In this document: positions 16,055 to 52,470 of the stretch, piece after piece
Numbering within the stretch: position 1 is the stretch's first letter
How the letters are laid out: each line of letters opens with the position of its first letter
Source of the DNA: Bradyrhizobium quebecense
GTDB lineage: Bacteria; Pseudomonadota; Alphaproteobacteria; Rhizobiales; Xanthobacteraceae
Direction: 5' to 3'
Assembly (NCBI RefSeq): GCF_013373795.3
Contig: NZ_CP088022.1
Span: forward strand, 3,162,001 to 3,226,000
DNA: 64,000 bases
Made by a program: the position numbers and the translations under genes
The notes under the pieces: generated by a model
Database searches by the model: none
Seen by the model: only the letters and a program-made list of their open reading frames with translations
Told to the model about the DNA's origin: nothing

Positions 16055-17140
16055 CTAAAGCGACTGGCCGACCGGAACGAGGGTCGGCTGGTCCCGTTCG
16101 GTCCGGCGCGCAGCGAGGCGCTCGGCCTGCAACACCGCCAATGTCAGCACGACGATCGCGACCGCCTGGTGCGCTAGCGCCAGATCGATTGGCACCTGAT
16201 GCAGCAGCGTCAGGATGCCGAGCGTCGCTTGCAGCGTGATCGCCGCAACCAGCCACCAGGCCCCCGCGATGACCGCACTTCCGGCGCGTGCACGCACCGC
16301 ATCGATCGCATGCGCGATCGCCAGCGCGAACAGCAGGTAAGCGGTCATGCGATGCTCGAACTGTACCGTCAGCGTGTTGTCGAACAGATTGCGCCACCAC
16401 GGCGTCTCGAACCACAGCCGGTCAGCCGACGGAATCAAGCCACCGTCGATCTCGGGCCAGGTGTTGTAGACCCGGCCTGCGCGCAGGCCCGCGACCAGCG
16501 CGCCGAAATAGAGCTGAACGAAGGTCAGCACGAGCAGCACCGCGCTCGTGATCTTCAGCCTGAGTGGCGCAATCACGGATGGACGATCCGTCAAGCGCCG
16601 CAGCGTCCAGACGATCGCCGCGAAGATCAGGAGCGCCAGCACCAGATGCGTCGCCAGCCGATATTGCGACACCTCGACGCGCTCCGAGAGGCCGGACGCC
16701 ACCATCCACCAGCCGACGCCGCCCTGCAGCGCACCGAGACCGAAGATCACCCACAGCCGCCGGCCGAGCTCGCCGCTCACCGCGCCGCGCCACAGGAAAT
16801 ACAGGAACGGCAGCAGATAGGCAGCGCCGATCACCCGGCCGAGCAGCCGGTGGCTCCACTCCCACCAGAAGATCGTCTTGAACTGATCGAGCGTCATCCC
16901 GGCGTTGAGCTCGCGATATTGCGGGATGGTCTTGTAGCCCTCGAAGGCCTTCGTCCACTGCGCCTCGGTCAGGGGCGGCAGCGCGCCTGTCACCGGCTTC
17001 CATTCGACGATCGACAGGCCGGATTCGGTGAGCCGCGTGGCGCCGCCGACCAAGACCATCAGCGCGATCAGGGCGGCGACCGCGATCAGCCAGACCCTGA
17101 CGGCGCGGAGCTGCGATGGTTGTGCGGAAATACCGGCCAT
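16055..17140 (-). CDS. ctaA: Haem A synthase (COX15/CtaA family)
   Basis: 361 residues with eight predicted membrane helices. Conserved features are [25 protein letters not shown] (an N-terminal alphaproteobacterial COX15 signature), the haem-ligand histidine segments [11 protein letters not shown] and [12 protein letters not shown], and [11 protein letters not shown] and [11 protein letters not shown] in the second half. It oxidises haem O to haem A in the inner membrane for aa3-type cytochrome oxidases. No other ctaA-ctaG type gene lies alongside. Confidence 0.95.
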
Positions 17141-17333: not shown

Positions 17334-17543
17334 ATGGCCATACGCACCCGCAAATTGCTCGGAACCATCGCCCTGCTCATCCTGGTCGTGGTGTGGTCGC
17401 TGCTTGGTATGACGGTGGCCCAGACCCCGTGGCTCGCCAATTCGGGGCTGCTGCAGGCGATCTTCTACGTCGTCGCGGGCCTCGGCTGGGTGCTGCCGGC
17501 GATGCCGATCGTCTCCTGGATGTCGCGGCCCGACCGCGCCTAG
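17334..17543 (+). CDS. DUF2842 domain protein (small two-helix membrane protein)
   Basis: 69 residues from the ATG at 17334; a longer reading starts inside the repeat element and is rejected. Two membrane helices (about 9-29 and 39-61) are joined by a short loop, and the C-terminus ends SWMSRPDRA. The family is widespread in alphaproteobacteria and has no known function. Its stop overlaps the stop of the convergent deacetylase-like gene by 4 bp. Confidence 0.8.
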   Translation: MAIRTRKLLGTIALLILVVVWSLLGMTVAQTPWLANSGLLQAIFYVVAGLGWVLPAMPIVSWMSRPDRA

Positions 17544-18670
17544 ATCGCGCCCTCGTCGCGCGCACGCCGCGTTGGCCGCACCGGTGCGAACATCACGCCC
17601 GAGAGCAGCACGCGCATCATCCGCAGCGAGCGCACGCGGCCGTCCCATGCGATGCGCGGCAGTGCGTGGAGGTTGGTGCGCCCCTGCGCCTCGACCACAC
17701 CTGATATGGTCGACACCGCGCTGGCGAAGCCGGCCTCCTCGGCCATCACGACATGCGGACGGCGGAACGCGTCGCGGTCCCCGAACGGGAATGCGAAATG
17801 CTTGATCGGCCGCCGCAGCGCGCTCTCGGCGACCGCCTTTCCCATCGCCATCTCGCGTTGCGCGTCGGCATCCCTGAGGCTCGACAGGACGGAATAGTTC
17901 ACCGTAGCGCTGCCGAACGTCACGTTCGGATCAGCCGCAAGCTTCGCCAGATCCGTCCAGTCGAGCGACGCGCCGCGTGACAATTGCGCCGCATCGGCCG
18001 AATAGCGCCGGCCGAGATCGTTCACTGCATAGGACAGATCGGACGGCGACAGCTTGCGCAGCCAGCCGGACAGGAAATCGAACAGCTCGTATTTGTCCGA
18101 CAGGCTCGAGACCACGAAATGCCGCTCCCTGCCATCGATCATCAGGCTGATGCGGCTCTCGCGCGCGATGATGTCCTCAAGCACCAGCCACCACGCCGTG
18201 CCCACGCCGTCCGGGAAAGCCGTCGGCAGATAGAGGGTGAAGGGGACGCGGTGCCTGGCGAGCACGGGATAGCCATGCGTGACGAAGTCCCTGGTCGCAC
18301 CGTCGAAGCTCAGGCAAACAAAGCGGCGCCGCTCCGGCAGGGTCACCGCGCGGCGGCAGGCCTCGTCGATCCCGACGATGTCGTACTTCCAGCGCTTCAG
18401 CGCGCGGAGGGCGCGATCGAGGAAGGCAGGCGTGATCTCCTGGGATTTCAGCGGCTGAAACCGGCCCCGGCGCGCAGGACGGACGCGCGCGAAGCGCAGG
18501 ATCACCCCGGCGCCCCCGGCCTCGTGTTCCCGCAGCCTGAAGGCGCCGCTGAAATAGGCGAGCTCCATCCGGGCCCGCCGCAAAATCCCGTTGTCCGGCG
18601 TCAAGATCCCCGCCTCTGGCCGGCGGTTCCCACACCCCGCCGCGGCATTGTTATTACTCTTTGTTGACAT
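17540..18670 (-). CDS. Polysaccharide deacetylase-fold protein lacking the metal-binding histidines (probable pseudoenzyme)
   Basis: 376 residues with the NodB/CE4 fold: motif 1 region VCLSFDGATRD, middle region with PVLARHRVPFTLYLPTAF, and FAFPFGDRDAF near motif 4. In active CE4 enzymes motif 1 is (T/S)FDDG and motif 2 is H(S/T)xxH. Here the second Asp is Gly (SFDGA), and the motif-2 segment reads GSATVNYSVLS, with Ala and Tyr at the two His positions. The metal site therefore appears destroyed while the fold is kept. It is divergent from the acyltransferase gene and next to exopolysaccharide genes; a structural or binding role is possible. Start choice (ATG 18670) is uncertain; a Met 34 codons further on is the alternative. 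Confidence 0.8.
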   Translation of the reverse strand: MSTKSNNNAAAGCGNRRPEAGILTPDNGILRRARMELAYFSGAFRLREHEAGGAGVILRFARVRPARRGRFQPLKSQEITPAFLDRALRALKRWKYDIVGIDEACRRAVTLPERRRFVCLSFDGATRDFVTHGYPVLARHRVPFTLYLPTAFPDGVGTAWWLVLEDIIARESRISLMIDGRERHFVVSSLSDKYELFDFLSGWLRKLSPSDLSYAVNDLGRRYSADAAQLSRGASLDWTDLAKLAADPNVTFGSATVNYSVLSSLRDADAQREMAMGKAVAESALRRPIKHFAFPFGDRDAFRRPHVVMAEEAGFASAVSTISGVVEAQGRTNLHALPRIAWDGRVRSLRMMRVLLSGVMFAPVRPTRRARDEGAI

Positions 18671-18736
18671 TTCCCTGCGAAGGTCGGCCGCAGCCGAGAC
18701 CTGTAAATTAATACCTTAAAAAATTTGGGCTCCGAG

Positions 18737-19930
18737 ATGATCATGGCGGCGGCAGTTGAAGGCCAGACGGCGGGGACGCGACCATGGCCGAACGCAATCC
18801 GCGTCGCCGGCGTCGACATCTTTCATGACCTCACTGCGGCCGAGGCGACCTGGCGCAGTCTCGAGACACCGCAACACAGCTACACCCCCTATCAGCGCTT
18901 CGATTTCCTCGCCAACTGGCAGCGCCAGGTCGGCGAGCGCGAGGGCCTGCGGCCCTTCATCGTCGTCGCTCATGACAGCGAACGCCGGCCGCTGCTGCTG
19001 TTGCCGCTCGCCGTCGAGCAGCGCCTGGGCGCGAGCTGCGCGGGCTTCATGGGCGGCAAGCATGCAACCTTCAACATGGCGCTGTACGACAAGGACTTCG
19101 CCGCCAACGCAACCGAGGCCGACATCACGGCACTGACCGGATCGATCGCCGAGCGGTCTCGCGTCGACGCGCTCGTGCTGTGTCAGCAGCCGCTGCGCTG
19201 GCAGGACCAGCCCAATCCGCTGGCGTTGCTGCCGCACCAGGCTGCGGTGAACGACTGCCCGCTGCTGATCATCGAGCCCGGCGCGGCACCCGCGGCACTG
19301 ATCAGCAACTCTTTCCGCCGGCGCCTCAAGGGCAAGGAGCGCAAGCTGCAGGCGCTGCCCGGCTACCGCTACCATGTCGCAAGCGACAGCGCCGACGTCT
19401 GCCGCCTGCTCGACTGGTTCTTCCGCGTCAAGCCGCAGCGCATGGCCGAGCAGAAACTGCCCGACGTGTTCGCCGAGCCCGGCGTCGAGCAGTTCATTCG
19501 CAGCGCCTGCCTTGCGCCGCGCGCCGACGGCAAGGGCTACGCGATCGACATCCACGCCCTGGAGTGCGACGAGGAAGTGATCGCGATCTTCGCCGGCGTC
19601 TCCGACGGTCATCGGTTCTCGATGATGTTCAACACTTACACGATGTCGGCGAATTCCAAGTTCAGCCCCGGCCTGATCCTGATGCGCGACATCATCGATC
19701 GCCACGCCGGCCTGAACTACCGCGCCTTCGACCTCGGAATCGGCTCGGACGAGTACAAGCGGCTGTTCTGCAAGAACGACGAAGCGATCGTCGACAGCTT
19801 CATTCCGCTCAGCCTGCGCGGCAAGCCGGCGGCAAGCGCGCTGTCGGCCATCAGCCGCGCCAAGCGCGCCGTGAAGCAAAATCCGGCGCTGTTCGAAATC
19901 GCGCAGAACCTGCGCAGCATGTTCCGCTAA
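18737..19930 (+). CDS. FemAB/BcsL-type GNAT acyltransferase for surface polysaccharide
   Basis: 397 residues from the ATG at 18737. The C-terminal Acetyltransf_6 (CelD/BcsL) domain spans about residues 170-330, with SNSFRRRLKGKERKL and the late motif FDLGIGSDEYKRLFCKND that is typical of this group. These cytoplasmic enzymes N- or O-acylate sugar or peptidoglycan precursors. HfsK of the Caulobacter holdfast pathway is of this class. Here the gene is divergent from the deacetylase-fold gene and a few kb from Wza/Wzz/PGT/polymerase genes, which supports a role in decorating the same polysaccharide. Confidence 0.82.
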   Translation: MIMAAAVEGQTAGTRPWPNAIRVAGVDIFHDLTAAEATWRSLETPQHSYTPYQRFDFLANWQRQVGEREGLRPFIVVAHDSERRPLLLLPLAVEQRLGASCAGFMGGKHATFNMALYDKDFAANATEADITALTGSIAERSRVDALVLCQQPLRWQDQPNPLALLPHQAAVNDCPLLIIEPGAAPAALISNSFRRRLKGKERKLQALPGYRYHVASDSADVCRLLDWFFRVKPQRMAEQKLPDVFAEPGVEQFIRSACLAPRADGKGYAIDIHALECDEEVIAIFAGVSDGHRFSMMFNTYTMSANSKFSPGLILMRDIIDRHAGLNYRAFDLGIGSDEYKRLFCKNDEAIVDSFIPLSLRGKPAASALSAISRAKRAVKQNPALFEIAQNLRSMFR

Positions 19931-19933
19931 GCC

Positions 19934-20872
19934 TCAGCTCGCCGCTTCACCCTGCTCTGCGCCGCCACTCGGTACGCCGAGCCGCCTCATCGCGTCGAAT
20001 AGCAGCGCCGCGGCAGGTGACAGCGCACGCTTGCGCAGCTTGATCAGGCCATAATTCTCCAGCAGGAGCCGGTCGCGAAGACGCAGCATCTTGAACCGCT
20101 GCGGGTCGACCAGATCGAACACCAGCATGGGAACCGGCACGATCGCGTCGATACCGGCGGCGATTCCAACCGAGGCAAAGAACGACTCGGTGTTGATGAC
20201 CCGGCGCGGCGGCGTCACGCCGCGGCTCATGAACAGCCTCTCCAGCGCCTGGCGCATGAAGGATTCCCGCGGCTGGCAAATCCACTGCTGGTCGGCCATG
20301 TTCTCCAGCTCGACGGTCTCGCGGCCGACCAATGGATGCTCGGCACGAACCAGCAGCACCGCCTCTTCTGCGCCGATCTCATAATAGTCGAATTGCCGGG
20401 GGTCGATGCCGGCCGGAATCCTGGCGACGACGAAGTCGAACTCGAGCGCGAGCAGACGCGTGATCAATGGCGGGCTGGTGCTGACATCGAGCGAGATGTT
20501 CACCCGGTTCAGCTTCTCGCCGAGATACTGGATCACGTCGACGACCAGGTCGATGCTGGGCTTGGCGACTGTTCCGACGGAGACGGTGCCGAGCTCGCCG
20601 GACTTGTAGCCCGCGAACTCGTCGGTGACCTGGTCGAGATCGGCCAGCACGCTCTTGCCGCCGCGAATCAGGATCGAGCCATAGGCGGTGGGCTCGACGC
20701 CGCGCGCCGTCCGCTCAAACAGGGGAACCCGCGCCAGCGCCTCGATTTCGGCGAGCATCTTCGATGCCGCAGACTGGGTGATGTTCAACCGCTCGGCCGC
20801 CAGCTGCAGCTTGCGCTCATTGTCGAGAGCGACCAGCAGGCGCAGCTGGCGCAATTTCAGGTTATTGATCAC
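19934..20872 (-). CDS. LysR family transcriptional regulator
   Basis: 312 residues, GTG start. An N-terminal helix-turn-helix (LRQLRLLVALDNERKLQLAAERLNITQSAASKMLAEIEAL) precedes a periplasmic-binding-protein-like effector domain from about residue 90. It is divergently oriented to the MFS transporter gene, and a T-N11-A box lies between them, so it probably controls that transporter and itself. The effector is unknown. It converges on the acyltransferase gene with a 3-bp gap. Confidence 0.93.
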   Translation of the reverse strand: MINNLKLRQLRLLVALDNERKLQLAAERLNITQSAASKMLAEIEALARVPLFERTARGVEPTAYGSILIRGGKSVLADLDQVTDEFAGYKSGELGTVSVGTVAKPSIDLVVDVIQYLGEKLNRVNISLDVSTSPPLITRLLALEFDFVVARIPAGIDPRQFDYYEIGAEEAVLLVRAEHPLVGRETVELENMADQQWICQPRESFMRQALERLFMSRGVTPPRRVINTESFFASVGIAAGIDAIVPVPMLVFDLVDPQRFKMLRLRDRLLLENYGLIKLRKRALSPAAALLFDAMRRLGVPSGGAEQGEAAS

Positions 20873-20906
20873 GGCCTGCTACCATCCTGCCCGGCAAGGG
20901 CCTCTT

Positions 20907-20998
20907 CGTTCCGATTAAATCGGAACGGGGCTCCAGATTCTGTCTTGACACGTTTTCCTGCCGCGAACCGGTATCCACTTCGCTGGAAAACGCTCTGG
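20907..20998 (+). repeat. Compound palindromic repeat, family B (copy 2)
   Basis: A leading palindrome (CGTTCCGATT-AA-ATCGGAACG) is followed by the conserved tail: TTGACACGTTTTCCTG, CGCGAACCGGTATCC, CGCTGGAAAACGCTCTGG. It is in the same orientation as copy 1 and sits in the LysR-MFS intergenic space, close to the LysR start. Confidence 0.83.
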
Positions 20999-21096
20999 GG
21001 TTCCCGCGTTTATACCGCGGTGCATCATGACAGTTTCGCCGTGGCTCCATTCCCAAATGCCATTAGTCACGCGGCTGTCGATTACACAACAATGAA

Positions 21097-21109
21097 TGCA
21101 ATACTTGCA
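21097..21109. promoter_or_regulatory. LysR-type operator (T-N11-A box) upstream of MFS transporter
   Basis: TGCAA-TAC-TTGCA is a perfect interrupted palindrome and fits the T-N11-A rule for LysR-type regulators. It sits 97 bp before the MFS start and about 225 bp from the LysR start. The rest of the 333-bp gap holds repeat copy B2 and no other clear signal. Confidence 0.5.
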
Positions 21110-21205
21110 AGGGCAAGGCGACGGACCGCTGCGGGTGCACCAAGTGCCACCCCGGGCAGCGCGATTACCGTGCGCCGAATCGAAAAACCGGAAGGGATGG
21201 GAACG

Positions 21206-22534
21206 ATGAGCGACGATGTCGAGAAGCGCGCAATCGGAAAGATGATGCGGCGGCTGATTCCGTTCCTCATCCTGTGTTACTTCGTGGCCTATCTCGATCG
21301 CGTCAATGTCGGCTTCGCCAAGCTGCACATGAACACGGCGCTTGGCCTCAGCGAAGCCGCCTACGGGCTCGGCGCGGGCCTGTTCTTCGTCGGCTACTTC
21401 TTCTTCGAAGTGCCCTCCAACATCCTTCTGGAACGGTTTGGCGCGCGGCGCTGGATCGCCCGCATCATGATCAGCTGGGGTATCGTCTCGGCGGCATTCG
21501 CGTTCATCCCGCAGATGTCCACGGCGAGCGGTCTCTCGAGCGAGTGGATCTTCTACTTCCTTCGCCTGCTGCTCGGCGCCTGCGAGGCCGGCTTCTTCCC
21601 CGGCATCATCTTCTATCTGACGCTCTGGTTCCCGACGATCTATCGGGCCCGCGTCATCAGCCTGTTCATGCTCGCGATCCCGATCTCGAGCATCATCGGG
21701 GCGCCGATCTCGGGCCTGCTGCTCAACCTGTCCGGAGGCGGCCTGACCGGGTGGCAGTGGCTGTTCATCTGCGAAGCGCTGCCGTCGGTCCTGGTCGGCT
21801 TCGCCGTGCTCGCCCTCCTGCCCGACTTCCCGCGTCAGGCGACCTGGCTGCAGCCCGACGAGGTCAAATGGGTTCAGAACACCCTTGAGATCGAGCGGCA
21901 GAAGAAGGAAGCGGTGGAGCACATCTCGGTGCTGCAATCGCTCACCGATTCGCGCGTGCTGGCCTGCGCCTTCGTCTACTTCTGCCTCAATGCAGCGAGC
22001 TACGGCGTCGCGTTCTTCCTGCCCACCATCATCAAGGCGTTTGGCGTCACCGACACCCAGACCGGCCTGATCGCAGCGCTGCCTTTCGTGTTCGGTGCGG
22101 TCGGCATGGTGCTGCTCGGCCGCCATTCCGACAAGACCGGTGAGCGGCGCTACCATGTCGCCGGCGCACTCGTGCTCGCCGCCGTCGGCATCGGCCTGGC
22201 CGGACTGGTCTCTAGTCCCGTGCTGATCATCGGCCTGCTCTGCCTCGCGCAGATCGGCGTTTCGGCTGTGCCGCCGATGTTCTGGCCGATGCCGGCCAGC
22301 ATTCTGAACGGCGCCTCGGCCGCGGCCGGCATTGCCGCGATCAACTCGCTCGGCAATCTGTCGGGCTTCGCGGGCCCGTTCGCCATGGGCTATCTGAAGG
22401 ATCTGACCGGTGGATTCACAGCAGGCCTGCTGCTGCTCGCGGTCGTCGGATTGATCGGCGCGCTGGTCACGATCAGGCTGCGGATCGATCCGGTCCTCGA
22501 GCGATCGATGCGCGAGCCGATGATGGCGCACTGA
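21206..22534 (+). CDS. MFS transporter, anion:cation symporter (ACS/phthalate permease) family
   Basis: 442 residues from the ATG at 21206, which has GGAAGG at a suitable distance; an ATG nine bases earlier is too close to that site. Twelve membrane helices are predicted. Signatures include YLDRVNVGFAKLHMN in helix 1 and GLGAGLFFVGYFFFEVPSNILLERFGARRW around helices 2-3, both typical of ACS-family permeases for organic anions such as hexuronates, phthalate or tartrate. Substrate unknown. It is paired with a divergent LysR regulator, and the pair separates two parts of the polysaccharide region. Confidence 0.9.
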   Translation: MSDDVEKRAIGKMMRRLIPFLILCYFVAYLDRVNVGFAKLHMNTALGLSEAAYGLGAGLFFVGYFFFEVPSNILLERFGARRWIARIMISWGIVSAAFAFIPQMSTASGLSSEWIFYFLRLLLGACEAGFFPGIIFYLTLWFPTIYRARVISLFMLAIPISSIIGAPISGLLLNLSGGGLTGWQWLFICEALPSVLVGFAVLALLPDFPRQATWLQPDEVKWVQNTLEIERQKKEAVEHISVLQSLTDSRVLACAFVYFCLNAASYGVAFFLPTIIKAFGVTDTQTGLIAALPFVFGAVGMVLLGRHSDKTGERRYHVAGALVLAAVGIGLAGLVSSPVLIIGLLCLAQIGVSAVPPMFWPMPASILNGASAAAGIAAINSLGNLSGFAGPFAMGYLKDLTGGFTAGLLLLAVVGLIGALVTIRLRIDPVLERSMREPMMAH

Positions 22535-22622
22535 GGCGCCATCACGAAGCATGTGAAGCGGCCTCCCAAAGCGAAGCGCGAATGACGTCTCAATCTGAGC
22601 TCATCGCGCCTTGGGGGTCCGG

Positions 22623-24959
22623 TCAGGCCGCCACCACGCGCGGACCCGCCACGACCGTTTCCGACGGCGCGCAGGGCTGGCTCAGCATCGTCACCTCGGA
22701 GAAACCGACGGCCCTGAGCTGATCGACCATCGAGCGGCGGGCATCCTGCGCCATGCCGGCGTCGGGCACGACGACAGCTTGCGCCTTTGCGGTCAGCAGC
22801 TCGGCCGGCAGGTCGACGGCCGTGCCGGCGTCGAGCAGCACGTGGTCGTAGACCCGGAGCAGCGCGTCGATCGCAAGCGCCAGCCGCGGCGATTGCAGAT
22901 GCGAGCGATCGAAGCCCGGACGCCCGGCGCTGACGATCTGAACCCGCGACTGCCGATCCTTGGTGATGATCTGTGCGAACGTCGCCTCGCCCTGCATCAA
23001 TTCAGCAAGGCCGGGCGCGCCGGGATCGACCGTGGCCGCCGTCAGCGCCGGCGAGGACGCGACAAGATCGACCACCACGACCTTGGCCTGACGCGCCATC
23101 AGACGGGCCAGCGTCAGCACAGTCAGCGTGACGCTCTCGGCGGCAGCCGGGCCGAGCACCGTGACCTTGTGGGCGGCTGGACCGGCCGCGACCAGACGCT
23201 CGGCCAGCTCATCGATCTCGTTGGCCGTCCGGGCGGGCGCAGGCTGCGGCTCGCTGACGACCGGCTCATATGCAACTGCGGGGTCGGGCCTCAGATCAGG
23301 CTCGGGCGACAGGCTGGGCGCGAGCGGCGACGCGAGCTCAGATTCAGGCGGCGGCGTCAGTGCCGGCTCGTCGACAGTTGCGGTTTCCATGACCGGTTCT
23401 CGGCGCCGGATCACTGCGGCGGCCGGCGCGAAGGCACGACCCACCGCGCCGGGCGCGGAGATGCGCAGCAGCTCGCCGGTGATGATGATGCCGGCCGACA
23501 GCAGCAGCGTCGCCAGTGTCGCGATCAGCACGATCGGCAGCTTCTTCGGATAGGCCGGCGTGTTCGAGACCGTGGCGCGCGAGATGATGCGGCCGTCGGT
23601 CGGCGCGGCCTCGATGTTCTCGCGTGCGGTCGCCTCGCGATATTTTGCGAGATAAGCTTCCAGCAGATCGCGCTGCGCCTTGGCTTCACGCTCGAATCCG
23701 CGCAGCTGCACGTCCTGGCTGTTGCTCGACGACGCCTGCTTCTTCGATTGATCCAGGCCCACTTGCAGCGCCTGGACCCGGCCATCGGCGACGCGGGCGT
23801 CGTTGTCCAGCGAGCGCGAAATCTTGCCTGCTTCCTCGCGCAATTGGCGGTCGAGGTCGGCGATCTGCGCCTTCAGTTCTTTGATGCGCGGATGGTTGTC
23901 GAGCAGCGTCGACGACTGCTCGGCGAGCTGTGCGCGCAGCGTGCCGCGCTGTTCGGCGAGCCGGCGGATCAGCTCGGAATTGAGCACTTCCGTGGCCTCG
24001 ATCGGCTTGCCGCCCTGAAGCATCTCGCGGATCAGGCGCGCCTTGGTCTCGGCATCCGCCTTCAGCGCGCGGGCATTGTTGAGCTGCGTGTTCAGCTCGC
24101 CCATCTGCTGGTTCGACAGCGGGATGTTGTTGGTGCCGACGAACAGGCTCGACTTGGAGCGGAATTCCTCGACCCGCGAATCCGCTTCCGCGACCTTGCT
24201 GCGCAGCTTGTCGATCTCGCCCAGCAGCCAGGTGCTGGCGGACTTGGCCTGGTCCTGCCGCGCCGCCTGCTGCAGCACCAGATAACCGTCGGCAATCGAG
24301 TTGGCGACACGCGCCGCAAGCTCGGGATCCTCCGACTGGAATTCGATCACCATGACGCGCGACTTGTCGACCGCATAGGCCTGGAAGCGCTCGTAAAAGG
24401 AATCGAGCACCCGCTCTTCCGGCGTCAGGCTGAACGGGTCACGGCCGATGCCGAACAGCGCCAGCAGCGACTTCAGGGGGGAAAAGCCCCGCAGCACCGG
24501 ATCGAACTCGGGGCGCTCGGCGAGCTTGTTCTTCTTGATGATGTCGCGGGCGAGATCGCGCGACAGCAGCAGTTGCACCTGGCTGGTCACGGCCTCGGCG
24601 TCGAGCGAGGTGCGCTCGAGGTCGCGCTCGCCGTTCGGGCGCAGGAAGGCGTTCTCGCGATTGTCGATCAGGATTCGCGCTTCCGACTTGTAGCGCGGCG
24701 TCACGACGTTGACGGCGGCAAGCGACAGCGCAAACGCGAACACGGTCGGCACGATGATCCAGCTTCGCTTGCGCGCCAGCGCGCGCCCGAGCACATACAG
24801 ATCGAGATCAGTCGCCTCCGCTGGACGCGCCGTCTTGTCAGGGGCTGATATCGGCGAAGCTGGCCTCGCAACGGCTTCGGCAGTAACGGGCGCAGACTTC
24901 GGTAACGCCCGTTGCACCGCGGCCTTTTCCTTGCCTCCATGCCAGAATGCAAAACGCAT
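22623..24959 (-). CDS. Wzz/ExoP-like polysaccharide co-polymerase with degenerate BY-kinase domain
   Basis: 778 residues from the ATG at 24959, which has GGGAG six bases upstream; an ATG at 24989 is the longer alternative. Order: cytoplasmic N-terminus, first membrane helix (about 65-85), Wzz domain with long coiled coil (about 90-460), second helix, Pro/Glu-rich linker, then a C-terminal ParA/BY-kinase-like domain. In that last domain the Walker A position reads VTVLGPAAAESVTLTVLT, with no GKS/T and no lysine. The Walker A' and B strands (VVVVDLVASS, HVLLDAGTAVD) remain, and there is no terminal Tyr cluster. It likely sets chain length and export with Wza but cannot act as a normal kinase. 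It is divergent from the Wza-like gene. Confidence 0.85.
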   Translation of the reverse strand: MRFAFWHGGKEKAAVQRALPKSAPVTAEAVARPASPISAPDKTARPAEATDLDLYVLGRALARKRSWIIVPTVFAFALSLAAVNVVTPRYKSEARILIDNRENAFLRPNGERDLERTSLDAEAVTSQVQLLLSRDLARDIIKKNKLAERPEFDPVLRGFSPLKSLLALFGIGRDPFSLTPEERVLDSFYERFQAYAVDKSRVMVIEFQSEDPELAARVANSIADGYLVLQQAARQDQAKSASTWLLGEIDKLRSKVAEADSRVEEFRSKSSLFVGTNNIPLSNQQMGELNTQLNNARALKADAETKARLIREMLQGGKPIEATEVLNSELIRRLAEQRGTLRAQLAEQSSTLLDNHPRIKELKAQIADLDRQLREEAGKISRSLDNDARVADGRVQALQVGLDQSKKQASSSNSQDVQLRGFEREAKAQRDLLEAYLAKYREATARENIEAAPTDGRIISRATVSNTPAYPKKLPIVLIATLATLLLSAGIIITGELLRISAPGAVGRAFAPAAAVIRRREPVMETATVDEPALTPPPESELASPLAPSLSPEPDLRPDPAVAYEPVVSEPQPAPARTANEIDELAERLVAAGPAAHKVTVLGPAAAESVTLTVLTLARLMARQAKVVVVDLVASSPALTAATVDPGAPGLAELMQGEATFAQIITKDRQSRVQIVSAGRPGFDRSHLQSPRLALAIDALLRVYDHVLLDAGTAVDLPAELLTAKAQAVVVPDAGMAQDARRSMVDQLRAVGFSEVTMLSQPCAPSETVVAGPRVVAA

Positions 24960-25134
24960 AACGAACTCCCGCGGACGCCGCGATTCCATCTCAATGGCCG
25001 CGATTACAGTCCATTAAGGTTGCTGCTGGGTTAATCGACGCGGTTGACGGATGCGGCGGCCACCACCACTCCGTCATCGTTTGTTAACCATGAGTGCCGT
25101 TAATCGATGCCGATATTGTTGCGGGATTCCTCAC

Positions 25135-25773
25135 ATGCGCGATCTGCGCGCTCCCCTCGTTTGTCTGATTGCTGCGCTCGCGCTGTCGGGCTGCATGGGC
25201 CGGACGTCGCCGGTTGCCGGCGACCCGGCCCTCGATTCGATGGCGTATGGGCAGCAAGGCTTCGCTGTGCCCGCGCCGATGGCCGTGGCCTATGCCGATC
25301 CCGCGCCGACGCGTGAGGCCTATAATCTTGGCCCCGGCGACAAGCTTCGCGTCGTGGTCTATGGCCAGGAAGGCCTGACCAATTCCTATGCTATCGATGC
25401 CGCCGGCGCGATCACCATGCCGCTGATCGGCTCGGTGCCGGCGCGCGGCCGCACTCCTGCCGGACTCGCCGCCGAGATCACGGGACGGCTGCGCAACGGC
25501 TACATCCGCGAGCCTTCGGTGGCGGTCGAGATCGAGGCCTACCGCCCGTTCTTCATCCTCGGTGAGGTCGCAGCCCCCGGCCAATATCCGTATGTACCCA
25601 ACATGACGGTCGAGAGCGCGGTGGCGATCGCCGGCGGCTTCTCGCCGCGCGCCCAGCGCGACCAGGTCACCCTCACCCATACCGATGCATCGGGCGCCGG
25701 CCGCTTTGTCGTTCCCTTGGGCACGCCGATCGGGCCCGGCGACACCGTCTTCGTCGGCGAACGCTGGTTCTGA
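25135..25773 (+). CDS. Wza-like polysaccharide export lipoprotein
   Basis: 213 residues from the ATG at 25135; a longer in-frame start is rejected because the lipoprotein signal begins here. The signal MRDLRAPLVCLIAALALSGC ends in an LSGC lipobox, so the protein is lipid-anchored in the outer membrane. The polysaccharide-export domain starts at YNLGPGDKLRVVVYGQEGL, and a SLBB-type segment follows (FFILGEVAAPGQYPY). It lacks the long C-terminal part of E. coli Wza, like the short GumB/ExoF-type members. It is followed 3 bp later by the glycosyltransferase gene. Confidence 0.88.
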   Translation: MRDLRAPLVCLIAALALSGCMGRTSPVAGDPALDSMAYGQQGFAVPAPMAVAYADPAPTREAYNLGPGDKLRVVVYGQEGLTNSYAIDAAGAITMPLIGSVPARGRTPAGLAAEITGRLRNGYIREPSVAVEIEAYRPFFILGEVAAPGQYPYVPNMTVESAVAIAGGFSPRAQRDQVTLTHTDASGAGRFVVPLGTPIGPGDTVFVGERWF

Positions 25774-25776
25774 TCG

Positions 25777-26916
25777 ATGGCACAGGATCAAAATCAGGAA
25801 CGGCCGCTCCGCATCCTGCATGTCGTCCGTGCCCCGGTCGGCGGCATCATCCGTCACATCCTCGATGTCGCCAACGGCCAGATCGAACGCGGTCACCATG
25901 TCGGCATCGTCGCCGACAGCCTGACCGGCGGCACGCGGGCTGACGCGGTCCTCGCCGAGATCGAACCGCGCCTCAAGCTCGGTGTCCACCGGGTGGCGAT
26001 ACGCCGCGAGCCGCGCTTCGCTGACTTCATGGTCTGGGCGCATATCGCCGGCCTGATCCGGAAACTGAAGCCCGATGTCGTACATGGTCATGGCGCCAAG
26101 GCCGGCGCCTATGTCCGGCTGCGGCGGCGCTCGAACAAGGTGATCCGGGTCTACACGCCGCACGGCGGCTCGCTGCACTATCCGCTCGACACCTGGAAGG
26201 GCCGCTTCTACAGCCAGCTCGAGCGCACGCTGATGAACAGTACCGACCTGTTCCTGTTCGAGAGCGCGTTTGCCCGCGACACCTATCAGCGCACCGTAGG
26301 CAAGCCCTCAGGCCTCGTCCGCTGCGTCTTCAACGGCGTCACGTCGGAGGAATTCGAACCGGTCGCCAAGGCCGACGACGCCTCCGACGTGGCCTATGTC
26401 GGCGAATTCCGGCGCATCAAGGGTGCCGACCTCCTGATCGACGCGGTCGCCAAGCTGCGCGCCGACGGCAAGCCGGTGACGCTGACGCTCGGCGGCGACG
26501 GCGAGGAGTTCGAACGGCTCAAGGAGCAGGTGAAGCGGCTGTCGCTCGGCGACGCCGTCCGCTTCATCGGCCACGTCAAGGCGCGCTTCGGCTTCTCGAA
26601 GGGCAGCGTTCTGGTGGTTCCTTCACGGGGCGATTCGATGCCTTATGTGGTGATCGAGGCCGGCGCGGCGGGAATTCCGATGATCGCCGCCAATGTCGGC
26701 GGCATCCCGGAGATCTTCGATACCCATACCGACGCGCTGTTCGCGCCCAGCAACGCCGGCGCGATGGCCGACGCCATCAAGGCCGCACTCGACAATCCCG
26801 CCGCGACCGCGGCGCGCGCCGAGCAACTGCGCGAACGGATTTCCGAACATTTCTCGCAGAGTGCGATGGTCGAGGGCGTGCTGGCCGGCTATCGCGACGC
26901 ATTTGCCAAACATTAA
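25777..26916 (+). CDS. GT4-family glycosyltransferase
   Basis: 379 residues. GT-B fold: an N-terminal LRILHVVRAPVGGIIRHILDVANG with the glycine-rich acceptor loop, PDVVHGHGAKAGAY, then a C-terminal donor domain with VGEFRRIKGADLLIDA and the EX7E-region VVPSRGDSMPYVVIEAGAAGIPMIA. It transfers a sugar from a nucleotide donor to a lipid-linked intermediate at the inner membrane. It starts 3 bp after the Wza-like gene, so the two are one operon, probably continuing to the sugar-phosphate transferase 115 bp on. Confidence 0.9.
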   Translation: MAQDQNQERPLRILHVVRAPVGGIIRHILDVANGQIERGHHVGIVADSLTGGTRADAVLAEIEPRLKLGVHRVAIRREPRFADFMVWAHIAGLIRKLKPDVVHGHGAKAGAYVRLRRRSNKVIRVYTPHGGSLHYPLDTWKGRFYSQLERTLMNSTDLFLFESAFARDTYQRTVGKPSGLVRCVFNGVTSEEFEPVAKADDASDVAYVGEFRRIKGADLLIDAVAKLRADGKPVTLTLGGDGEEFERLKEQVKRLSLGDAVRFIGHVKARFGFSKGSVLVVPSRGDSMPYVVIEAGAAGIPMIAANVGGIPEIFDTHTDALFAPSNAGAMADAIKAALDNPAATAARAEQLRERISEHFSQSAMVEGVLAGYRDAFAKH

Positions 26917-27031
26917 CCATTTCTTGCACACGTAACCGTTTCTTCCGATTTGTCCCCTTAAGTCACGTCCGGGGGAATTTCGCTGTTGCGCGCGGATGCC
27001 CATCTGCTCGCGCAGGAATGGACGTGGACTC

Positions 27032-28573
27032 GTGGAACCGTTTAACGCACGCTCGATGCTAGATGCCGCTGCGTCTGCGACGGCCGCTCAGCCGCAGGTC
27101 GAACGACGCCGCCGTCTGTCGCCGGCCGCGCTCGCCGTTACCAATCAAAAAGTTCGCGGCGCCTACTCACCGGTCGTAATCGCCGGCGTGGTTCGCCTTA
27201 CCGATTTCGTGCTGCTCAGCCTGGTCGGCGTCGGGCTCTATCTCGCCTATGTCAGGCCGTTCGCCGGCGGCATCCACTGGGGATACATCGGTTCGATCCT
27301 CGGCATGTCGGCTGCGGCGGTGGTCTGCTTCCAGGCCGCCGACATCTATCAGGTGCAGATCTTCCGCGGCCAGCTCCGCCAGATGACGCGGATGATCTCG
27401 TCATGGGCCGTCGTGTTCCTGCTGTTCATCGGCGTCTCCTTTCTGGCCAAGCTCGGCGGCGAGGTGTCGCGGGTCTGGCTGTCGTCGTTCTTCTGCGTCG
27501 GCCTCGCGGTGCTGATCGCCGAACGGCTGGCGCTGCGCTCGATGGTGCGCGCCTGGGCGCATGACGGCCGGCTCGACCGCCGCACCATCATCGTCGGTGC
27601 CGACCAGAACGGCGAGAAGCTGATCGAGGCGCTCAATGCCGACGATGATTCCGACATCCACGTGCTCGGCGTGTTCGACGACCGCAATGACGCCCGCGCG
27701 ATGGACACCTGTGCCGGCTCACCGAAGCTCGGCAAGGTCGACGACATCGTCGAATTCGCCCGCCGCACCCGCGTCGACCTCGTGCTGTTTGCGCTGCCGA
27801 TCTCGGCGGAGACCCGCATCCTGGAGATGCTGAAGAAGCTCTGGGTGCTACCGGTCGACATCCGCCTGTCGGCCCATACCAACAAGCTACGCTTCCGCCC
27901 CCGCTCCTATTCCTATGTCGGTAAGGTGCCGACGCTCGACGTATTCGAGGCGCCGATCACCGACTGGGATCTGGTGCTGAAATGGCTGTTCGACCGCGTG
28001 GTCGGCGGCCTGGCCCTGCTTGCGGCACTGCCGGTGCTCGGACTGGTGGCGCTTGCGGTGAAGCTCGACAGCCCCGGCCCGGTGCTGTTCCGCCAGAAGC
28101 GCTTCGGCTTCAACAATGAGCGGATCGACGTCTACAAGTTTCGCTCGCTCTACCATCACCAGGCCGATCCGACCGCCTCCAAGGTGGTGACCAAGAACGA
28201 TCCGCGCGTTACCCGCGTCGGCCGCTTCATCCGCAAGAGCTCGCTCGACGAATTGCCGCAGCTGTTCAATGTCGTGCTGAAGGGCAATCTCTCGCTGGTC
28301 GGCCCGCGTCCGCACGCCGTGCAGAGCAAGCTGGAGAACCGCCTGTTCGACGAGGCCGTCGACGGCTACTTCGCCCGCCACCGCGTCAAGCCCGGCATCA
28401 CCGGCTGGGCGCAGATCAACGGCTGGCGCGGCGAGGTCGACACCGACGAGAAGATCCAGAAGCGCGTCGAATACGACCTCTATTACATCGAGAACTGGTC
28501 GGTGCTGTTCGACCTCTACATCCTGCTCAAGACCCCGTTCTCGCTGCTGACCAAGAGCGAGAACGCGTACTGA
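27032..28573 (+). CDS. Undecaprenyl-phosphate sugar phosphotransferase (WcaJ/HfsE-like initiating transferase)
   Basis: 513 residues from the GTG at 27032. An ATG at 26996 (12 codons longer) and an ATG at 27056 are alternatives, and no start has a strong ribosome-binding site. Four N-terminal membrane helices precede a CoA-binding-3-like domain ([19 protein letters not shown]) and a fifth helix. The catalytic bacterial sugar transferase domain has [33 protein letters not shown] and [16 protein letters not shown]. It loads the first sugar-1-phosphate onto undecaprenyl phosphate and so starts the repeat unit. Confidence 0.9.
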
Positions 28574-28577
28574 GATC

Positions 28578-28609
28578 GATTGCCCTCGCTCACGCTCCTC
28601 GCAATGACG
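28578..28609. repeat. Half copy of inverted repeat family A
   Basis: GATTGC and then GCTCCTCGCAATGACG match only the right half of the elements at 8960 and 38615. The left arm is absent, so this is a truncated copy. It lies between the sugar transferase and polymerase genes. Confidence 0.6.
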
Positions 28610-28649
28610 AGCGTCAGCTTATGTGTCTGTTGCGTTGCGTGAGTATCCG

Positions 28650-29918
28650 ATGGCCTATGCGGCGACAGCCGGGACGTCCCAATCGCCGACATCAGCGCCG
28701 CCAGGCGTGCTGGCGCTGCAGCGGGCGCTGGTGTGGCTCGCCGGGGCCTCGATCGCCATCGTGTTCATCGAACCGAGCCCGTATGAACTCGTCACGCTGA
28801 CCGCCTGCGTGCTGTTCTTTGGTACGGGCCTGCGCATGCAGCTCGTGTTCATGCCGCTGCTGTTCGCGCTGATCGTGCTCAATGTCGGCTACAGCATCGG
28901 CGCGGTGCCGTTCCTCGACAAGCCGGAGGTGGTGAACTGGGTCCTCACCTCCTGGTATATGGCCATCACCGTCATCTTCTTTGCAATGGTGATCTCGGAA
29001 GATACCGAAGCGCGGCTCGACATGCTGCGCCGCGGGCTGATCGTCGGCGCGATGATCGCCTCGCTTGCGGGCATCGCTGGCTACTTTCATCTGGTGCCCG
29101 GCGGCTACGATCTGCTGACGCTGTATGACCGCGCCCGCGGCACCTTCAAGGACCCGAACGTGCTCGGCGCGTTCCTGATCCTGCCGGCGCTGTTCACGCT
29201 GCAAAGCGTGGTCACCGACCGCTTCGGCAAGGCGTTCCGCAACGCGATCGCCTTCGGCATCATCTCGCTTGCGATCCTGCTGTCGTTCTCCCGGGCCGCG
29301 TGGGGCGGCCTGATCGTCACCGCGGCCTTCATGCTGGCGCTGATGGTGTTCACCAGCCGCTCGCAGGCGCAGCGCTCGCGCATCATCGTGATGACCCTGA
29401 TCGCCGCGATCCTGGCCGTTGCGCTGATCGCGGTGCTGCTGTCGATCGGCTCGGTCGCCGACATGTTCAAGCAGCGCGCGAGCTTCGACCAAAGCTATGA
29501 CGAAGGCCGCTTCGGCCGGTTCGGCCGCCACATCCTCGGCGCCCAGATGGCACTCGAATTGCCGTTCGGCATCGGGCCGCTGCAATTCCACACCTACTTC
29601 CCCGAGGACACCCACAACTCCTTCCTCAACGCCTTCATGTCGGGCGGCTGGATCTCGGGGATCTGTTATCCGGCGCTGGTGTTCGTCAGCGCGATCATCG
29701 GCTTCCGCTACGTCTACAAGCGGGTGCCGTGGCAGCGCGACTATCTGGCGATCTTCTCGGCGTTCCTTGGCATCGTCGGCGAGAGCTTCATCATCGATAC
29801 CGACCATTGGCGGCACTTCTGGCTGATGCTGGGGACGATGTGGGGCATGTACGCGGCGACCGAGCGCACCCGCGCGACACCGGCCGAGGTCAGCGACGAG
29901 ACTTCGGCGGCAGCTTGA
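28650..29918 (+). CDS. Wzy/O-antigen-ligase-like membrane polymerase
   Basis: 422 residues from the ATG at 28650 (GTGAG upstream); a GTG at 28623 would add nine. About ten to eleven membrane helices are seen. The Wzy_C region contains RARGTFKDPNVLGAFLIL and the periplasmic loop GIGPLQFHTYFPEDTHNSFLN, the usual place of the catalytic Arg/His residues in O-antigen ligases and polymerases. It would polymerise the repeat unit made by the two preceding genes. Its last 29 bp overlap the convergent marR gene. Confidence 0.83.
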   Translation: MAYAATAGTSQSPTSAPPGVLALQRALVWLAGASIAIVFIEPSPYELVTLTACVLFFGTGLRMQLVFMPLLFALIVLNVGYSIGAVPFLDKPEVVNWVLTSWYMAITVIFFAMVISEDTEARLDMLRRGLIVGAMIASLAGIAGYFHLVPGGYDLLTLYDRARGTFKDPNVLGAFLILPALFTLQSVVTDRFGKAFRNAIAFGIISLAILLSFSRAAWGGLIVTAAFMLALMVFTSRSQAQRSRIIVMTLIAAILAVALIAVLLSIGSVADMFKQRASFDQSYDEGRFGRFGRHILGAQMALELPFGIGPLQFHTYFPEDTHNSFLNAFMSGGWISGICYPALVFVSAIIGFRYVYKRVPWQRDYLAIFSAFLGIVGESFIIDTDHWRHFWLMLGTMWGMYAATERTRATPAEVSDETSAAA

Positions 29919-43371: not shown

Positions 43372-43449
43372 TGGTCGGAGCGAGAGGATTTGAACCTCCG
43401 ACCCCTAGTCTCCCAGACTAGTGCGCTAACCGGGCTGCGCCACGCTCCG
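43372..43449 (-). tRNA. tRNA-Pro (anticodon GGG)
   Basis: The cloverleaf folds completely. The acceptor stem is CGGAGCG/CGCTCCG with discriminator A and encoded CCA, the D-arm contains GCGCAGCCCGGTTAGCGC, the anticodon stem is CTAGT/ACTAG with loop CTGGGAG (anticodon GGG), and the T-arm GGAGG-TTCAAAT-CCTCT has one G-U pair. It reads CCC and CCU codons. Confidence 0.96.
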
Positions 43450-50349: not shown

Positions 50350-52470
50350 TTAGTGCGCCAAGATCGCCAGCAGCAGCAGCGCCACGATGTTGGTGATCTT
50401 GATCATCGGGTTGACCGCCGGGCCCGCCGTATCCTTGTAGGGATCGCCGACGGTGTCGCCGGTCACCGCGGACTTGTGGGCGTCGGAGCCCTTGCCGCCG
50501 TAGTGGCCGTCCTCGATGTACTTCTTGGCATTGTCCCAGGCGCCGCCGCCCGAGGTCATCGAGATCGCGACGAACAGGCCGGTGACGATGACGCCGAGCA
50601 GCATGGCGCCGACCGCGGAGAACGCCGCCGACTTGCCGGCCGCGCCGCCGCCCGCGATCGCATAGATCACGAAGTAGACGAAGATCGGCGACAGCACCGG
50701 CAGCAGCGACGGGATGATCATCTCCTTGATCGCTGCCTTGGTCAGCAGGTCGACCGCCTTGCCGTAGTCCGGCTTGTCGGTGCCCTGCATGATGCCGGGC
50801 TTCTCGCGGAACTGACGGCGCACCTCTTCAACGATCGCGCTGGCGGCGCGTCCGACCGCCGTCATACCCATCGCGCCGAACAGATACGGCAGCAGGCCGC
50901 CGAACAGCAGGCCGACCACGACGTAGGGGTTGTTGAGCGAGAAGTCGGGATTGACCCCCTTGAAGTAGAGGTGGTTGGCGGAGTCCGCGATGAAGAATTT
51001 GAGGTCCTCATTATAGGCCGCAAACAGCACCAGCGCACCGAGACCGGCGGAGCCAATCGCGTAGCCCTTGGTCACCGCCTTGGTGGTGTTGCCGACTGCG
51101 TCGAGCGCGTCGGTCGACTTGCGCACCTCCTTAGGCAGACCCGCCATCTCGGCGATGCCGCCGGCGTTGTCGGTGACCGGGCCGAAGGCGTCGAGCGCGA
51201 CGATCATGCCGGCCAGCGCCAGCATGGTGGCGGTCGCGATCGCGATGCCGAACAGGCCGGCCAGGCTGTAGGTGACCAGGATGCCGGCGATGATGACGAG
51301 CGCGGGCAGCGCGGTCGCCTCCATCGAGATCGCCAGGCCCTGGATCACGTTGGTGCCGTGACCGGTGACGGACGCCGCCGCAATCGACTTCACCGGACGA
51401 TAGTCGGTGCCGGTGTAGTACTCGGTGATCCAGATGATCAGGCCGGTGACGACGAGGCCCACCACGCCGCATTCGAACAGCGCCATGCCGGTGTAGTCGA
51501 CGCCATCGAGCTTGCCGAAGCCGATCAGCCAGTTGATCACGGCCGCGACGCCGACCAGCGACAGGATGCCGGTGGCGATCAGGCCCTTGTACAGGGCACC
51601 CATGATCGACTGGCTGGCGCCGAGCTTGACGAAGAAGGTGCCGATGATCGAGGTGATGATGCAGATGCCGCCGATTGCGAGCGGAAGCGTCATCATGCTC
51701 ACCAGGATCGGCGTCTTGGCGAAGAAGATCGCCGCGAGCACCATGGTGGCGACCGCGGTCACCGCATAGGTCTCGAACAGATCCGCCGCCATGCCGGCGC
51801 AGTCGCCGACATTGTCGCCGACGTTGTCGGCGATGGTGGCTGGGTTGCGCGGATCGTCCTCCGGGATGCCAGCCTCGACCTTGCCGACGAGGTCGCCGCC
51901 GACGTCTGCACCCTTGGTGAAGATGCCGCCGCCGAGACGGGCAAAGATCGAGATCAGCGAGGCGCCGAAGCCGAGCGCCACCATGGCGTCGACCACGGTG
52001 CGGCTGCCGGCTTCCAGCCCCATGAACTTGACCAGCACCATGAAGTAGATGGTGACGCCGAGCAGCGCGAGACCGGCAACCAGCATGCCCGTGATCGCAC
52101 CCGCCTTGAAGGCGAGTTCGAGGCCGCCGGCCAGCGAGGTGGTCGCCGCCTGCGCGGTGCGGACGTTGGCGCGCACCGAGACGTTCATGCCGATGAAGCC
52201 GGCTGCCCCCGACAGGATGGCGCCGATCGCAAAGCCGATCGCCACCAGAAGGCCAAGGAAGTAGGCCAGCACCACGAAGATCACAATACCGACCATGCCG
52301 ATCGTGGTGTATTGCCGCCGCAGATAGGCTTGTGCGCCCTCGCGCACCGCGCCCGCGATTTCCTGCATGCGGGCATTGCCCGCATCCGCGTTCAAGACCG
52401 ACTGCGTCGCCCAGATCGCGTAGACGATGGAAAGCGCCCCGCAGAGCACAATCAACCATAAAGCTGTCAT
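50350..52470 (-). CDS. hppA: Membrane-bound proton-translocating pyrophosphatase, K+-independent type
   Basis: 706 residues from the ATG at 52470; the extended reading to 52626 is upstream sequence. About 16 helices are predicted. Pyrophosphate-site motifs are [44 protein letters not shown] and, later, [18 protein letters not shown]. The K+-determining motif reads GNTTKA, with Lys where K+-dependent enzymes have Ala, so it should be K+-independent. It couples PPi hydrolysis to H+ pumping across the inner membrane. Confidence 0.97.

Follow-up and report, generated by a model that had tools for sequence, protein, structure and literature searches.

The closest described system to the locus examined here is the core cluster for unipolar polysaccharide (UPP), known from Bradyrhizobium, Rhodopseudomonas and Agrobacterium (PMC12727192, PMC4018554). 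The locus lies in a stretch of 64,000 nucleotides of Bradyrhizobium quebecense (the window, G000:C1:3162001-3226000 of the 9.17 Mb genome), and coordinates are those of the window unless they carry one of our genome (G) or locus (L) numbers. B. ottawaense has a uppABDEF cluster, syntenic with that of USDA 110, with uppC at another site, and deletion of uppC or uppE reduces polar root attachment; in A. tumefaciens uppC is of the Wza type and uppE is the initiating transferase (PMC12727192). Agrobacterium uppABCDEF was described as an incomplete Wzy-type cluster, with flippase and polymerase then still unfound (PMC4018554). The holdfast genes of Caulobacter (HfsH, HfsK, HfsA/B/D/E/C) divide the labour in the same way, including a CE4 protein and a GNAT protein that act on the polymer: the CE4 protein HfsH is thought to expose amines on which the GNAT protein HfsK may act (PMC5362036), and a single change of an active-site aspartate in HfsH has the phenotype of a deletion (PMC8449245).

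Judged by synteny and the published layout, the window locus is the already known core upp cluster, which would make a polar root adhesin. What is unexpected is that the CE4 protein encoded in it has lost its metal ligands in every copy read from one family, the Nitrobacteraceae, with an intact copy elsewhere in nearly all of the genomes.

The locus as a core upp cluster

When the transferase was used as the query against named genomes, at least 588 confirmed stretches were obtained, of which the best 80 (51–97% identity) were kept for locus comparison; 61 of these have enough flank, that is, at least 9 kb upstream and at least 3 kb downstream. The best 80 loci range from Bradyrhizobium to Sinorhizobium, Mesorhizobium, Bosea, Methylobacterium and Devosia and form one layout group, with the common order in Hyphomicrobiales being ctaA, CE4, GNAT, Wzz-like, (Wza), GT4, transferase, Wzy. 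In the synteny comparison suggested with the original prediction, made from the sequence of the window, GNAT, Wzz-like, GT4, transferase and Wzy genes occur together in the window and in 49 of the 61 loci, including all 25 that belong to Nitrobacteraceae. Conservation of the order across loci excludes a chance grouping.

The original prediction, a locus for an attachment polysaccharide that overlaps with the UPP pathway of rhizobia, is thus borne out by the layout. The arrangement had also been thought unreported, and this does not hold, since the uppABDEF core of B. ottawaense and its synteny with USDA 110 are already described (PMC12727192). The core roles match those in the window, and the published system resembles it further in the need for transferase and Wza in polar attachment, in a cluster without a flippase and in a Bradyrhizobium uppC that stands apart; unlike it, the window clade has a uppC copy in the cluster and an inserted LysR-MFS pair (PMC12727192; PMC4018554). 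The letters uppA, uppB, uppD and uppF given to the window genes below follow gene order alone. The proposed role-by-role correspondence with Caulobacter hfs fails in detail: the window transferase does not score as HfsE (336.8 bits with NF050817, against an NCBIfam cut-off of 750), the counterpart of HfsH lacks the metal ligands, and the Caulobacter gene order, hfsEFGHCBAD, is different (PMC12727192).

The CE4 gene is not discussed in the portions of the upp descriptions that we examined (PMC12727192; PMC4018554). In Sinorhizobium terangae (L087:2845-4531) we detected no CE4 gene between ctaA and the GNAT gene; an open reading frame (ORF) that by eye looks metallophosphoesterase-like is found there.

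Loss of metal ligands in the cluster CE4 protein

The cluster CE4 gene of the window (17540..18670, minus strand) encodes a protein with a PF01522 match of 33.7 bits (cut-off 23.1), limited to residues 239–301. The deacetylase fold originally proposed for it therefore stands as regards the family signature but not as regards the metal-binding residues. By Pfam sequence match it belongs to the same family as the CE4 deacetylases PgaB and 6dq3, and solved CE4 chains come up with a profile of its mostly intact relatives (23 intact and 5 inactive rows); unlike PgaB and 6dq3, and unlike Caulobacter HfsH in its metal site, the window copy has neither the second aspartate of motif 1 nor the two histidines of motif 2.

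This loss was seen in a first alignment of the window CE4 with 55 copies that neighbour the transferase. The window and all 25 Nitrobacteraceae copies have FDG where the others have FDD (L054 being unreadable at this point), and a motif such as SATxxY stands in the Nitrobacteraceae cluster CE4 in place of AHTxxH in other copies. In the window protein the changes are D124 to G, H255 to A and H259 to Y. In CE4 enzymes this aspartate and both histidines are the metal ligands.

In the merged alignment, all 140 rows of which differ from one another, 45 cluster copies can be set against 94 other rows (51 in-cluster or other copies and 43 solo paralogues). D124, H255 and H61 are each kept in 0/45 cluster copies and H259 in 2/45, whereas each of the four positions is kept in 94/94 of the other rows. 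Three further distinct copies (L160, L210 and L220), each adjoining GNAT and ctaA genes, also lack D124, H255 and H259. With these, D124 and H255 are gone in 48/48 distinct copies and H259 in 46/48; the 48 comprise 26 rows from named loci including the window, L160 (Rhodopseudomonas sp. B29) and 21 copies from a family sample, the latter being 20 that remain after two repeats of named genomes were dropped, plus L236 (G073).

The rest of the protein is largely preserved. A set of 53 intact rows conserves 69 columns; of these, the 26 inactive copies compared keep 42 and have lost 18 (L054, a short ORF with motif 1 unreadable, was left out of this comparison and of the tree below). Residues D123, D128, W160, W161 and R339 are kept in 43–45 of the 45 cluster copies, D123 and D128 being invariant, and the clade has fixed residues of its own (W94 and R345 in 45/45, D343 in 44/45). 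The replacement residues are themselves conserved (G124 in 45/45, Y259 in 39/45), and the great majority of copies have a full-length reading frame.

From these alignments, the Nitrobacteraceae cluster CE4 is likely a retained pseudo-deacetylase without catalysis. Our literature search turned up no report of a pseudo-deacetylase in upp, with most subscription journals lying outside the search. The likeliest alternative is that the protein is still a deacetylase, with its ligands moved or without a metal. The 42 of 69 retained columns and the near-complete retention of D123, D128, W160, W161 and R339 would fit such an enzyme; against it, the loss took three or four His/Asp positions at once, all of them invariant outside the clade (94 rows), and mutation of one active-site aspartate is enough to abolish HfsH function in the published account (PMC8449245). 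We therefore regard continued activity as unlikely.

The loss appears to be a single old event. In a CE4 tree built by a quick method without bootstrap, from an alignment stripped of the motif columns, the 46 usable inactive rows form one clade (support 100 by the SH-aLRT, the Shimodaira–Hasegawa-like approximate likelihood ratio test), which takes one change of state; a separate clade, also with support 100, holds the 43 solo paralogues. The tree excludes L158, L163, L206, L212 and L246 (long or duplicated) and L210 and L220 (ORF extraction stopped near the N-terminus). The inactive clade falls within a 73-row group (96) whose other 27 rows are intact copies found elsewhere in the family, a good number of them in-cluster. 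This topology is best read as inheritance of the cluster copy in place, with a single loss of the ligands in a common ancestor. The joining point of the solo clade has a support of 37, and the solo copy may either have arisen by duplication in this lineage or have been gained.

The ratios of nonsynonymous to synonymous substitution rates (dN/dS, Nei–Gojobori method, NG86) are 0.12–0.27 for inactive CE4 (10 pairs), 0.10–0.31 for intact in-cluster CE4 (5 pairs) and 0.13–0.19 for solo CE4 (8 pairs); Wzz-like values from L020-L048 (dS 3.03) and L021-L026 (0.87), probably cut or misframed ORFs, were not used. The cluster CE4 is under purifying selection and has fixed new residues, unlike a gene that is falling apart. 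This bears on the reading of the cluster CE4 as a functionless gene in decay that will eventually be lost. The lost ligands themselves could be taken as decay; L160, on a small draft contig, is split across two frames, another part of the cluster also decays (the in-cluster Wza remnant of L018), and in G140, another genome of the family, the only match is of the solo type by identity (35%), a cluster-type copy being absent. These points are outweighed by dN/dS values like those of active copies, by full-length frames in most copies, by conservation of the replacement residues and by the retention of one old loss in nine genus codes of the family sample, so that decay seems a shade less probable still than continued activity.

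The intact solo paralogue and a proposed mechanism

The genome of B. quebecense also carries, at G000:C1:7777334-7778338, a further CE4 gene of full length that is related to the intact enzymes; its product is 47–51% identical to the closest intact in-cluster copies and 33% identical to the window copy. We searched the genomes of 24 of the 28 named Nitrobacteraceae loci (all except L015, L016, L034 and L048) and found a solo orthologue with intact motifs in 23 of them, the exception being G023; eight rows of this comparison, L156-L163, are not orthologous to the solo copy.

The family sample of 119 genomes, including that of the window, gives the same picture. A match at 1e-25 was present in 89 genomes, and 23 have a cluster-type match (at least 48% identity); all 23 have a second match covering most of the length, at 33–39% identity. 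The 22 cluster-type copies read besides that of the window all lack D124 and H255 and all adjoin a GNAT gene, and the second copies that were read (20 of 22) are intact in 20/20 cases. A further 18 best matches from the family were read; 17 proved intact, and the remaining one, in G073, is a dead-type copy for which no clear intact partner is seen. G140 has one match only, at 35%.

The solo CE4 gene adjoins an OmpA/BON gene in 23 of the 24 loci compared (not in L156). We considered a joint duplication of CE4 and GNAT and rejected it, as the divergent neighbour of the solo gene is this OmpA/BON protein, which has no similarity to GNAT. In B. quebecense the solo gene also lies near phoR-like, pstS and pstC genes (L102:9301-19248), the phoR call being below its family cut-off and the pstS and pstC calls above theirs. 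Membership of a pho regulon was rejected as well: the pho-box pattern has no match near the solo CE4 gene, and the only exact match precedes pstS (L102:16902-16919). The window has one match, at 52453, with 3 mismatches, fewer than chance gives.

On this basis we propose the following scheme, in which the steps are assigned from gene families and published roles. UppE would load the first sugar phosphate onto undecaprenyl phosphate, the GT4 protein would extend the lipid-linked glycan, and the GNAT protein would add acyl groups while the glycan is still cytoplasmic. Once it has been turned over by a flippase whose gene lies at another site, the Wzy-like protein would polymerise the repeat units, and the Wzz-like and Wza-like proteins would export the polymer at a single cell pole, to act there as an adhesin on roots. 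The cluster CE4 of Nitrobacteraceae would carry out no deacetylation; it would act at the site of assembly, by binding the lipid-linked repeat unit or by partnering the intact CE4, and any deacetylation would be carried out by the intact solo CE4. The cluster protein is thus probably a non-catalytic glycan-binding or partner protein.

The AdoMetDC prozyme (PMC5201418) offers a likeness, in that a conserved dead paralogue and an intact one are likewise found in one genome; for the CE4 pair, a complex or an activation would be a prediction. Tentatively, the dead CE4 of the locus, as glycan-binding or partner protein, and the active CE4 elsewhere may be a pair that runs or controls the deacetylation on which the stickiness of the adhesin depends; we hold this narrower idea to be possible, though doubtful.

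It should be noted that several observations weigh against the scheme. A ligand may have moved elsewhere in the fold, given that D123 and D128 are invariant and that two copies keep H259. L156, an intact copy that lies outside the cluster in G028, is the row adjoining the inactive clade (support 67), so that inheritance in place can be called no more than likely. G023 and G073 carry a dead copy and no clear orthologue of the intact one. The neighbourhood of the solo gene is not a polysaccharide cluster, and no pho box was found before the gene, near as it is to phoR-like, pstS and pstC genes, so that its link to UPP is conjectural. Finally, the letters uppA, uppB, uppD and uppF are inferred from gene order. 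With these points taken into account, we still consider the explanation as a whole, a core upp cluster in which Nitrobacteraceae have kept a non-catalytic CE4 while an intact paralogue supplies deacetylation, to be quite probable.

Other genes of the locus and implications

All genes named in the original parts list (CE4, acyltransferase, Wzz, Wza, GT4, transferase and Wzy) were recovered as full-length ORFs at the coordinates given here, each with Pfam or NCBIfam support. The locus is flanked by a MarR gene and by a gene (16055..17140, minus strand) for what we take from its sequence to be a CtaA/Cox15-like heme A synthase; this is a conserved locus edge, present in 50 of the 61 loci with enough flank. 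Next to the CE4 gene lies that for a GNAT/FemAB-type acyltransferase with an HfsK-like role (18725..19930, plus strand; PF13480, 118.4 bits), uppA by gene order; it begins with TTG, so the real start may be further in. A GT4 glycosyltransferase (25777..26916, plus strand; PF00534, 103.9 bits) would correspond to uppD, and a Wzy-like polymerase/ligase (28623..29918, plus strand; Wzy_C PF04932, 38.9 bits, cut-off 31.7) to uppF. In line with the prediction, no flippase of PF01943, the one flippase family scanned, lies in the window; the genome as a whole has 5 places that match this family.

The product assigned to uppB by gene order (22623..24989, minus strand) is a Wzz/BY-kinase-like co-polymerase with a degenerate kinase domain (PF02706, 33.4 bits, cut-off 25.5; TIGR01005, 269.7 bits, under the cut-off of 411.7). 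The family match upholds the Wzz half of the earlier description and the kinase half does not stand, as both the Walker A lysine and the C-terminal tyrosine cluster are missing in the window and, by eye, in orthologues where the region is readable. The protein thus looks like a pseudokinase fusion. We rejected the dead kinase domain as a trait of the window clade, since it is general among readable rows.

The initiating sugar-phosphate transferase, uppE (26996..28573, plus strand; Bac_transf 207.9 and CoA_binding_3 178.2 bits), scores 497.7 bits with TIGR03023 (undecaprenyl-phosphate glucose phosphotransferase), above the cut-off of 410.75. WcaJ-type transferases act for many different polymers, and this match, like the general resemblance among Wzx/Wzy parts lists, would also suit a bulk exopolysaccharide or capsule in place of a polar adhesin; such a product is very improbable, since the locus is syntenic with the upp core, mutants of which lose polar attachment in B. 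ottawaense, and the two other transferase matches of the genome each lie about 5 kb from a Wza gene of their own, misfitting the published upp layout.

The Wza-like outer-membrane export protein in the cluster (25129..25773, plus strand; Poly_export PF02563, 80.8 bits; SLBB, 39.3 bits) is one of two uppC copies in this genome. The second is at G000:C1:6658695-6659234, with no polysaccharide families among the surrounding ORFs scanned. Among 24 Nitrobacteraceae genomes searched, 19 have the separate copy only, 4 have both and one (G022) has the in-cluster copy only; G002, counted among the four, has a separate match that spans residues 96–214 only. The prevalence of the separate copy alone is the same pattern as the published one, with Bradyrhizobium uppC apart. 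In Bradyrhizobium sp. CSA112 a broken remnant of an in-cluster Wza gene is seen (L018:8470-8771), and the separate copy is retained in the genome. In a quick tree, in which rows L192 and L193 are in-cluster copies entered twice, the in-cluster Wza of the window clade groups with the separate copies of the same genomes (93) and not with the in-cluster copies of Afipia. This moderate tree support suggests that a copy returned to the cluster or that gene conversion took place. With a dN/dS of 0.08–0.15 (4 pairs; the window and three relatives), the in-cluster Wza looks functional.

Between the two halves of the locus stands a clade-specific insertion, a LysR regulator gene (19934..20872, minus strand; PF03466 and PF00126, 90.2 and 63.2 bits) and a gene for an MFS transporter (21185..22534, plus strand; MFS_1, 203.6 bits). 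The original view of the pair as an insertion is confirmed: apart from the window, the only carriers of the pair at this site among the best 80 of at least 588 loci are B. macuxiense, B. tropiciagri and B. viridifuturi (L011-L013). The site is the gap between two convergent genes, GNAT and Wzz-like. Orthologues of the MFS gene have 96–97% identity at the same site in the three relatives and 76–77% at other sites in G011, G013 and G015; in two genomes checked, no similar LysR gene lies within 1.5 kb of the displaced MFS orthologue. We found nothing convincing as target-site repeats. The same gap in L014 (4041-6137) holds what we presume to be a different LysR gene and a TctC-like gene, and these other genes make the gap a repeated landing site. 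The window LysR gene has a dS of 0.65–0.70 to its three orthologues, about twice the 0.17–0.37 of its neighbours, as if it had been replaced by recombination.

The pair's position between the locus halves and its divergent layout would suit a regulator and transporter that control or feed the adhesin pathway. This is highly improbable: not counting the window, the pair is at the site in only 3 of the 25 Nitrobacteraceae loci that have enough flank, the MFS orthologue occurs at other sites without such a LysR gene nearby, L014 has different genes at the same spot, and insertions are tolerated between convergent genes. We therefore rejected the pair as a pathway member; it is probably a tolerated landing in the gap, not related to the adhesin. 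At a distance from the locus, the sole tRNA gene found in the window, tRNA-Pro (ggg) at 43372-43449, lies in a stretch of lower G+C content (0.60–0.62 at 39–46 kb).

Adhesion by the holdfast needs a deacetylase, and UPP has been modelled on the holdfast. If our explanation is true, an entire family, the soybean symbionts among its members, retains a dead deacetylase in the upp locus, and models built on Caulobacter HfsH would not be directly transferable to it.

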